Origin: Antiquaquibacter soli
GTDB lineage: Bacteria; Actinomycetota; Actinomycetes; Actinomycetales; Microbacteriaceae
NCBI RefSeq assembly: GCF_030580675.1
Contig: NZ_JAUQUB010000001.1
Coordinates: 248,001 to 312,000 of the forward strand
Direction: 5' to 3'
DNA length: 64,000 nt
Both the position numbers and the translations under genes were made by a program. The first letter of the stretch is position 1. Each line of letters starts with the position of its first letter. The notes beneath the pieces are model-generated. The model saw only the letters and a program-made list of their open reading frames with translations. It made no database searches and was not told the origin of the DNA. Shown one piece after another: positions 3,875 to 61,871 of the stretch.

Positions 3875-3986
3875 TCCCTTGCACCAAGAGTGTCCTGCAA
3901 TCACATTCCGCTGAAGCTGCCACAGCAAACAACTTCTGCTCTAGAAATGTATAACGGAACGGTAACGCTGTCTAGTTATCGAAACG

Positions 3987-4730
3987 TTATTTTTCTGTGA
4001 GTTTGCTCAGGGCCGCGAACCGTCGATGCGCGAAGAGAGTGCCCCCGGCGAGGAGCAGGAGAATCCCGCCCGCCAGAACGGGCAGGGATGGGGATGCCCC
4101 GGTCGCAGCAAGCTCGGGAGACGGGATCGGGGACGGCGGTTGCTCCCCCTCTTCCCCTCCCAACGAGCCCCCGTGAAGAACGAGGGGGAGTCCCGCGAAG
4201 GTCGGTGCGCTGCTGGTGAGCGCATAGATCACTGTCTCTCGAGTAGCCGCGGCACCGAAAGCGACGGCAACGCGAAGGACGGCGGGCGGATCGGCCGCTG
4301 GCTCGTCCTGAGGGATCGTGCATCCCACCATCACCTGGGTGGTGCTCGCCGGACTGCTCGCCGGGGAGAAGGGTCCCTCGCCGATGCTGCAGCCGATCGA
4401 CACGGAGATGTTCTCGATCTCGACCGTGGTTCTCGTCGAGTCGACGGTGACCCCGGCGGGCAGTGCCAGCACGAGCGCCGCCGTTCCGGCTCGCAACTCG
4501 CTCGTCGACAGTTCGTACTCGATGATCACTGTCCTACCGCGACGCGGTTCGTCATCGGCCAGAGGTCCCCCGTCGTCGGCGGTGACGGCTGCGCTCGTCG
4601 CGTTGGTGGTCGGGTAGACCCACAGCGGCTCGACCCAATCGACGGCAGCCGCCGGCGTGGCGAGGATCAGGGTCGCGGCGATCGCGGCCGCGAGTCCGGA
4701 GAGAGCGAGGACCGGGCGCACTCGAGGCAT
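3987..4730 (-). CDS. Secreted surface protein with LAATG sorting signal
   Basis: A 247-residue exported protein: signal peptide at residues 1-29 ending in ATPAAA, then a beta-rich extracellular region (about 30-190), a Pro/Ser linker (PPSPIPSPE), the motif LAATG, a hydrophobic helix and a short tail with HRRF and K residues. This order is that of sortase substrates; LAxTG rather than LPxTG is the signal of class E sortases common in actinobacteria. No sortase gene is in the window. The extracellular part has no domain I can name. TAGGCT ends six bases before the ATG at 4730, so the mRNA is probably leaderless. Confidence 0.8.
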   Translation of the reverse strand: MPRVRPVLALSGLAAAIAATLILATPAAAVDWVEPLWVYPTTNATSAAVTADDGGPLADDEPRRGRTVIIEYELSTSELRAGTAALVLALPAGVTVDSTRTTVEIENISVSIGCSIGEGPFSPASSPASTTQVMVGCTIPQDEPAADPPAVLRVAVAFGAAATRETVIYALTSSAPTFAGLPLVLHGGSLGGEEGEQPPSPIPSPELAATGASPSLPVLAGGILLLLAGGTLFAHRRFAALSKLTEK

Positions 4731-60749: not shown

Positions 60750-60771
60750 GAAACACCGCGACACGCCGAAA

Positions 60772-60817
60772 CACTAGATCTAGTGGAATGACATTCGTGT
60801 GATTCGGGTTATATAGT
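60772..60817 (+). promoter_or_regulatory. Promoter and palindrome of the 27-residue peptide gene
   Basis: The 14-bp palindrome CACTAGATCTAGTG (60772-60785) sits just before TGACAT (60789-60794) and, after 17 bases, TATAGT (60812-60817). This is the cleanest -35/-10 pair in the window. A small CACCG/CGGTG hairpin (60825-60843) follows in the leader. The palindrome is placed to act as an operator. Confidence 0.7.
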
Positions 60818-60872
60818 GGAGACCCACCGGCAGACAGTCGGTGAATTCCAAGAAGACTTGAAGGGGGATCCC

Positions 60873-60956
60873 ATGGAGAACGAGACCGACACCATTGGCG
60901 GCTACGCGGTCCCGATGGACCCGATGGATCTTCTGCAGTGCGACAGCTGCCAGTAG
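60873..60956 (+). CDS. Orphan 27-residue peptide ending in CDSCQ
   Basis: Open frame of 28 codons: starts MENETDTIGGYAVP and ends PMDPMDLLQCDSCQ. AGGGGG five bases before the ATG is a strong ribosome binding site, and a consensus promoter lies upstream and a 15-bp terminator downstream, so a free-standing expressed peptide is likely. The acidic N-terminal part and Cys/Ser-containing C-terminus resemble a RiPP precursor (leader plus core), but no modifying enzyme or exporter is nearby. Alternatives: a CxxC metal-binding peptide, or a leader peptide attenuating the next gene. Codons are less G+C-biased than in the neighbours. Confidence 0.6.
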   Translation: MENETDTIGGYAVPMDPMDLLQCDSCQ

Positions 60957-60978
60957 GCAGTCAGCACCCACAAGATTC

Positions 60979-61013
60979 GAAGCCCCGGCGACCGTGATGG
61001 TCGCCGGGGCTTC
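60979..61013 (+). terminator. Terminator after the small peptide gene
   Basis: GAAGCCCCGGCGACC (60979-60993) pairs perfectly with GGTCGCCGGGGCTTC (60999-61013) over 15 bp with loop GTGAT, 22 bases past the peptide stop and 30 bases before the next gene. Confidence 0.88.
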
Positions 61014-61043
61014 ACCGTTACGGGCCGTGGCTAGGCTCGACGC

Positions 61044-61871
61044 GTGGCACTCACACGCATCAAGCTCGGACGCCGGGAGGACCTCGGCGCAGATTGCGCG
61101 AACTGTTTCGGGCTGTGCTGCGTCGCCCTCGCCTTCAGTCGATCGAGCGACTTCCCCGTCGACAAACCCGCTGGCGAGCCGTGCCTCAACCTTGACGACT
61201 CCGACGCATGTCGCATCCACGATCGACTGCGGGCCGACGGATACGCGGGCTGCACCACCTTCGACTGCTTCGGTGCGGGCCAGAAGGTCTCGTACCACAC
61301 CTTCGGCGGGCGATCGTGGCGGCACGATCCGCGCCTTCGCGACAGCATGTTCTCGGCCTTCTCGACCGTGCGACGGCTGCACGAGCTGCTGTGGTACCTC
61401 GATCAGGCGATCGACCTCGCACCCTCCGCGGAACTCGTCACTCACTTCGGTCGCGTCAAAGGTCTGAGCGACGGGGATGCCCCGGCTCTGGCATCCCTCG
61501 ATGTCGACGCCGAGTACGACACCGCTCGCCCTCTCCTGCTCAGCGCGAGCAGGACGATCCGTCAGGGACATGGGTCTCCGACGCTGAGCGACCGACTGCA
61601 TCCCGGCGCCGACCTGTCGGGCGCGCGCCTGGAGGGTGCGGACCTGCGCGGTGCCGAACTTCGCGGGGCGCTCCTGATCGGTGCCGATCTCAGCAACGCC
61701 GACCTGCGCTGGTGCGAGCTCCTGGGCGCCGATCTTCGCGGCGCGGACCTGTCCGGCGCGCGACTCAGCTCGGCTGTCTACCTGGCGCAAGGGCAACTCG
61801 ACAGCGCCCGAGGCGACAGACGAACCGAGCTTCCCGACGGTTTCCTCCGTCCACGTCACTGGGCACTCTAG
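61044..61871 (+). CDS. Cys-cluster and pentapeptide-repeat protein
   Basis: 275 residues. The N-terminus has a CxxCxxxCC cluster (CANCFGLCC, about residues 18-26) with more cysteines at about 48, 56, 69 and 74, resembling YkgJ-type metal-binding domains. Residues about 100-170 are helical. The C-terminal part (about 185-260) is a run of around a dozen pentapeptides of the A(D/N)LxG type, which fold as a right-handed quadrilateral helix like gyrase-protecting proteins. TAGGCT ends six bases before the GTG at 61044. Function unknown; the adjacency to the Cys-containing peptide is notable. Confidence 0.8.
   Translation: MALTRIKLGRREDLGADCANCFGLCCVALAFSRSSDFPVDKPAGEPCLNLDDSDACRIHDRLRADGYAGCTTFDCFGAGQKVSYHTFGGRSWRHDPRLRDSMFSAFSTVRRLHELLWYLDQAIDLAPSAELVTHFGRVKGLSDGDAPALASLDVDAEYDTARPLLLSASRTIRQGHGSPTLSDRLHPGADLSGARLEGADLRGAELRGALLIGADLSNADLRWCELLGADLRGADLSGARLSSAVYLAQGQLDSARGDRRTELPDGFLRPRHWAL

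Follow-up and report, generated by a model that had tools for sequence, protein, structure and literature searches.

What a free-standing frame of 27 codons with a full set of expression signals might encode is the question raised by one locus of the window, i.e. the whole 64,000-nucleotide stretch of Antiquaquibacter soli DNA analysed here. The initial annotation had considered a RiPP precursor, a CxxC metal-binding peptide, a product acting unmodified or in trans, and a Cys-codon leader peptide. The analysis described below indicates that the product of the gene is very probably the C-terminal redox tail of the host class I ribonucleotide reductase (RNR), made as a separate peptide.

A complete and conserved small gene

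The gene extends over 60873..60956 of the + strand, from the ATG at 60873 to the TAG at 60956, and encodes the 27-aa peptide MENETDTIGGYAVPMDPMDLLQCDSCQ, in which C23 and C26 form a CxxC motif near the C-terminus; its conserved core, VPMDPMDLLQCDSCQ, occupies 60909..60953 (+). On the same strand, a palindrome (60771..60786) is followed by a -35 element, TGACAT (60789..60794, as read from the sequence; the promoter scan sets the hexamer one base earlier), a 17-nt spacer, a -10 element, TATAGT (60812..60817), and a ribosome binding site, AAGGGGG (60861..60867). The promoter scan gave 1 site in 4 kb versus 0.1 expected, and AGGAGG-like sites were seen by eye in relatives at roughly the position of the window ribosome binding site. 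Downstream of the frame, also on the + strand, a perfect 15-bp hairpin (60979..61013, arms 60979-60993 and 60999-61013) forms a probable U-less terminator, with a stability of -38.5 kcal/mol over 75 nt by RNAfold, and a comparable G+C-rich hairpin was found at most 90 nt away in 6 of the 7 relatives folded. The palindrome, promoter, strong ribosome binding site, 27 codons and 15-bp hairpin described at the outset are all present at 60771-61013. The leader hairpin is also there, but proved weak on folding; likewise, the supposed terminator is a perfect hairpin that folds well, but it has no U-run, which is why the terminator scan listed none at the locus.

Orthologues of the peptide were found in 25 of the 26 other genomes of the genus and across the Microbacteriaceae. 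The 15-codon core showed a pN/pS of 0.085 (55 distinct sequences from 103 loci), a value with a downward bias, since protein similarity was the means of collecting the loci, and lowered by the 80 family loci (the best 80 of 432 relatives) that were fetched with a pattern requiring the Cys pair. Both Cys residues of the CxxC were present in 103/103 orphan cores, an invariance that comes in part from this selection of loci. The earlier view of a gene beyond chance expectation therefore holds, both by retention of the frame in the genus and by a substitution pattern that shows codon constraint; the window gene is real, complete and under selection.

The place of the orphan gene is also conserved, as it stands upstream of maoC-maoC-murB. 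Among 107 other loci, searched with low-complexity filtering off and with a positive control, the first maoC was kept at 98, the second at 97 and murB at 94. These 107 include four linked or other copies (L087, L096, L122 and L072) that were excluded from the core, box and linked/orphan-type counts (L025 was also left out of the pN/pS set); some strains are represented twice, and each flank of 27 loci spans only about 1.5 kb. In this strain, a pentapeptide-repeat protein whose N-terminal part is rich in Cys is encoded at 61044-61871, between the orphan and maoC.

The proposal of a Cys-codon leader peptide that controls this Cys-rich gene drew on the hairpin 3' of the frame, with the gene after it. 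None of the 107 other loci kept the Cys-rich gene, the HtrA-like gene or the small membrane gene, so that, of the loci compared, only the one in this strain has these three genes. The synteny thus contradicts the proposal and removes it, there being no conserved downstream gene of this kind for an attenuator to regulate at those loci, and protein-level conservation spans the entire core, beyond the Cys codons. The probability of a leader peptide is therefore close to nil.

The core corresponds to the C-terminal tail of NrdA

When the host genome was searched with the peptide, a second copy was found on contig C12, between nrdA and nrdB, where genes were called by codon usage, the DNA being G+C-rich; the window copy lies on contig C1, unlinked to nrdA. 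The 823-aa host NrdA, the nearest solved relative of which is 5im3, scored far over the NF005101 cut-off, and NrdB was over that of NF007186. No RNR large subunit beyond this NrdA was found in the host genome with PF02867, and no class III NrdD with PF13597. As a separate observation, the NrdB at L032 8885-9877 carries EEANHCMSFEY; its Phe presumably occupies the place expected for the radical Tyr of class Ia, which suggests a class Ic-like cofactor.

The host NrdA ends in ...PARRGFGGLGA and contains four Cys residues, at 227, 305, 441 and 456, none of them in the last 367 residues; C227 and C456, assigned by motif, are taken here to be the active-site pair. Since the last Cys is at 456, the tail CxxC of a class I enzyme is missing. 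In ordinary class I RNR, this CxxC is carried on a flexible tail of NrdA that re-reduces the active site and is recharged by thioredoxin or glutaredoxin, and this swinging tail, which enters the active site, is a textbook feature of the enzyme. Available passages of the literature describe an attached tail that reduces the disulfide of the active site and then relies on a redoxin for its own recharging (PMC5704485), with CxxC in most class I NrdA tails and CxxxxC in that of E. coli (PMC9669993).

In related families, the motif was found attached to NrdA. Among 297 genomes sampled from the order, it was detected at E<=0.001 in 28, namely the host, G189 and 26 genomes of other families, and in 25 of these 26 it forms the end of the NrdA frame itself (24 of the 25 loci L341-L365, plus L030; the remaining genome is G400, L365). 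For example, the NrdA of G421 reads ...QGPARRGFGGLQPHVDVIDGEECPVDPMERLQCESCQ, that is, the segment where the Microbacteriaceae NrdA stops, followed by the tail. On sequence grounds, the core of the orphan is homologous to this fused tail (e.g. CPVDPMEALQCESCQ). In the Microbacteriaceae, in contrast, a CxxC was found at none of 108 NrdA C-termini, and any Cys in only one, in a frameshifted stretch (L238). These C-termini came from 28 plus 80 further family genomes, with two fused loci of other families (L239 and L240) left out; one (L224) is cut by a contig end. The frame of L238 is broken (G035, 86% complete): its nrdA extends beyond the usual stop, perhaps through a sequencing indel. Unlike the usual tail, the peptide is thus not a covalent part of NrdA, with the window copy unlinked and 0/108 NrdA C-termini bearing the motif; it is encoded by a separate gene that may also be unlinked, is often multi-copy and occurs on mobile elements. 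The PDB alignment of the fused NrdA ends before the tail, and none joins the tail to a solved one, so that position, the CxxC itself and the fusions within the order are what ties the peptide to the known CxxC tail.

These data also bear on a RiPP precursor or metal-binding CxxC peptide, an idea that fits the short length, acidic N-terminal part and Cys/Ser-containing C-terminus of the product. The same core forms the C-terminus of NrdA elsewhere, and the conserved neighbours found were maoC, maoC and murB, with no adjacent maturation enzyme among them; NCBIfam and PHROGs gave no family match and Pfam just two sub-threshold hits. This origin is extremely improbable, and the RiPP and leader-peptide readings most likely both fail.

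Linked and orphan copies

A detached tail gene was found directly 3' of nrdA in 74 of the 80 further family genomes, and most genomes hold an orphan copy besides the linked one. Relative to nrdA, the linked tail is in frame 2 in 61 cases, in frame 0 in 8 and in frame 1 in 5. Its own start lies at -1 to +10 of the nrdA stop in 69/74 and overlaps the stop in 56. That recoding, by frameshift or stop bypass, might fuse the linked copy to NrdA, with the tail acting in cis and the orphan as a spare with another role, would agree with the prevalence of frame 2 and with an upstream stretch that is often open. However, all three relative frames occur, which a single conserved frameshift cannot explain; the positions of the starts, the lack of a common slippery site on inspection by eye, and five genomes with only unlinked copies argue in the same direction. 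Recoding is thus a very improbable explanation, and the start pattern suits translational coupling better. Programmed frameshifting as such was considered for the linked copy and rejected as unlikely, given the mixed frames.

Both types of tail can be told apart by the residue that precedes LQC: 101 of 104 orphans have L, M or F there, whereas 58 of 74 linked tails have D or E; the window copy is of the orphan type.

Co-occurrence of the tail with NrdA

In a set of 60 genomes that included the host, a tail was present in 30/30 with a close NrdA (>=73% identity), being free in 28 and fused in 2, whereas the other 30 gave no tail match better than E 0.7. The fused tail of G058 was found at E 0.34 in one search and at 1.8e-9 in the order-wide search. 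G043 and G053, with NrdA at 42% and 40% identity, were without a tail match in the 60-genome search. The sole genome of the genus that lacks the peptide, G020, has only a distant large subunit (28% identity). This subunit is probably class Ib, and an RNR swap perhaps took tail and NrdA together.

When 249 genomes of the family were compared, the peptide (E<=0.01) was present in 110/110 with NrdA (E<=1e-150) and in 4/139 without it; Fisher P values for this co-occurrence overstate independence, because the genomes are related. The four exceptions are a weak match in G060 (E 0.0083), a 16-codon frame in G189, and G161 and G219, which are without any PF02867 match and therefore probably incomplete. 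The G189 frame (L333, SCPVDSMDELNCDSCQ), in a genome without this NrdA, could be a remnant or have a missed start.

An NrdR-like operator shared by the orphan and nrdA

The palindrome of the orphan promoter, ACACTAGATCTAGTGG (60771..60786, +), had been listed among the expression signals. It is indeed present but not an isolated element, as it forms a pair of NrdR-like boxes with the -10 region, and the pair is also found at nrdA. Box 1 scored 13/16 and box 2 (TCGGGTTATATAGTGG, 60804..60819, +, overlapping the -10 element) 10/16 against the NrdR consensus. Both are separated by 17 bp, and nrdA shows an equal layout with 16 bp; the half-site ATATAGTG is common to box 2 and the nrdA upstream region, and the octamer GACACGCC (60760..60767, +) recurs, by eye, just upstream of the nrdA operator. 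A gene for NrdR is present in the host genome.

Box pairs of at least 21/32 against this consensus were found in 104/104 orphan promoters and in 0/104 shuffles; some strains are represented twice, and the promoters comprise 86 distinct upstream sequences. In a narrower box search, 1 of 103 promoters was scored as without a pair and L112 at 17, and the wider search pairs 104/104. A pattern derived from the orphan and nrdA sites matched only these two promoters in 3.2 Mb, with 0 in the control. NrdR boxes are described as 16-bp palindromes with a usual spacing of 15-16 bp, binding being seen at 14-17 bp (PMC12051234, in the portion available). The two palindromic boxes and spacers of 17 bp (orphan) and 16 bp (nrdA) lie within this accepted range (excerpts of PMC12051234 and PMC9110341). 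Unlike that regulon, the putative target here is a lone tail gene, which NrdR would control by binding the orphan boxes as it would those of nrdA.

Genomes with only unlinked tails

The linked tail was absent from 6 of the 80 further genomes, one of which, G230, corresponds to a contig end. In the other five (G102, G224, G171, G064 and G186), nrdB comes right after a tail-less nrdA, and only unlinked tails were found. Four of these genomes are 96-100% complete, and G224 is 88% complete in 200 contigs. NrdD (PF13597) was detected in none of the five, and no other PF02867 match was found in four of them, G186 having a second. In G064, a genome of 0.9 Mb, about 33 kb separate the single tail from nrdA. 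Similar box pairs are seen by eye at the chromosomal orphans of the five genomes, and an extra plasmid copy in G171 has none. As read from these genomes, the tail can act solely in trans there, which fits the earlier suggestion of a product that acts unmodified or in trans; the five are natural tests of tail supply in trans.

A proposed route for electrons to NrdA

We propose that the peptide would carry electrons from a redoxin to the active site of NrdA. Catalysis by NrdA would oxidise the active-site cysteine pair C227/C456. In this family NrdA ends short of its tail, and the tail, of about 25 residues, would be made as a separate peptide from the linked and the window genes, with translation of the former beginning at the nrdA stop or close to it. 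The peptide would dock on NrdA, perhaps via YxVPVDPM and the RRGFG segment that remains at the end of NrdA. Acting in trans, it would reduce the disulfide of the active site and, once oxidised, be recharged by a redoxin. Docking, electron transfer and the redoxin partner are the parts that we infer. Since the orphan promoter shares the paired NrdR-like operator with nrdA, NrdR would tune the supply of the tail in step with that of NrdA and NrdB, and several gene copies may keep the diffusible tail in excess.

A small product with an operator common with nrdA, often multi-copy and phage-borne, could instead be a regulator or assembly factor of RNR, such as a competitor or brake, and not an electron shuttle. 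However, the peptide has the very CxxC that is missing from NrdA and is homologous to the fused tail, and a pure brake leaves the tail-less NrdA of genomes with only unlinked copies unaccounted for. A regulatory role is hence left with a small probability, and the electron-carrier role is the one preferred here.

The tail of yeast Rnr1 reportedly acts in trans, in work attributed to Zhang in 2007. A separate chain with this function is known from P. aeruginosa, where NrdJb gives NrdJa its thiol exchange, according to available passages of PMC4520616. The likeness, seen here at the sequence level, is a catalytic subunit that needs a thiol-exchange part made as a separate polypeptide. In contrast, the NrdJa/NrdJb system is of class II, and NrdJb has folded domains (PMC9669993, in the portion available), whereas the host system would comprise a class I NrdA with an NrdB partner and a 27-aa tail that is also unlinked and duplicated. 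No description of a free class I RNR tail was found in open-licence PMC full text; split RNRs are already known, and a free, dispersed and mobile class I tail peptide would be the new element. The tail appears detached throughout the NrdA-bearing Microbacteriaceae and is encoded only elsewhere in some genomes. If true, this would be a natural trans-complementation system in which to test how the tail reaches the active site and by what it is recharged.

Phage and plasmid copies

Viral contigs were scanned for the tail, and the best 80 of 422 relatives were fetched, of which 79 gave a readable tail. None of these 79 was fused to NrdA or had NrdA in its flanks (<=5 kb on each side), none showed a box pair when tested, and NrdB was found in the flanks of three. 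Nine proteins from eight of the 80 loci were compared with phage families, and eight matched; terminase or portal matches came from three loci, and helicase, primase or exonuclease genes in four. In Pontimonas phage phiPsal1 (E 0.02) and Clavibacter phage CMP1 (E 0.04), which make up the L367/L368 pair, a readable tail frame lies in an unannotated gap just after the holin gene. The match in Pseudanabaena phage Pan2 (E 0.02) is an annotated hypothetical gene, and phage CN1A gave a weak match (E 5).

Splitting of NrdA coding capacity between frames is known from nrdA-a/nrdA-b of Aeromonas phage Aeh1, and many split phage RNR genes are interrupted by introns, inteins or endonucleases, as stated in the passages available from PMC3653736. 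The viral loci found here differ in that the tail is seen without NrdA in the flanks.

Such copies would presumably be of benefit to phages, and we propose that phages may carry the tail to raise dNTP supply free of NrdR. It seems reasonably likely that the catalytic tail of an essential enzyme became a diffusible, exchangeable electron-carrier peptide, with separate genes in one family, an orphan under an NrdR-like operator, and phage and plasmid copies (the viral ones tested being without the operator) that could feed the host RNR during their own replication. To our knowledge, no phage-borne metabolic gene for the supply of DNA precursors would be smaller.

Extra tail genes were observed at L033, L034, L035 and L036, with divergent pairs about 500 bp apart in L033, L035 and L036; the contig that holds those of L033 is 45 kb long and has a ParA-like gene, identified by eye. 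Nineteen plasmid records matched the tail, at E 3e-5 to 0.1. On a Leifsonia plasmid (L369), a 33-aa tail peptide, WP_223361114.1, is encoded at 3983-4084 beside conjugation genes. The tail reading would explain a set of tiny genes that are unannotated or misnamed. WP_223361114.1 is named 'ribonucleotide-diphosphate reductase subunit beta', which is likely a misnaming.
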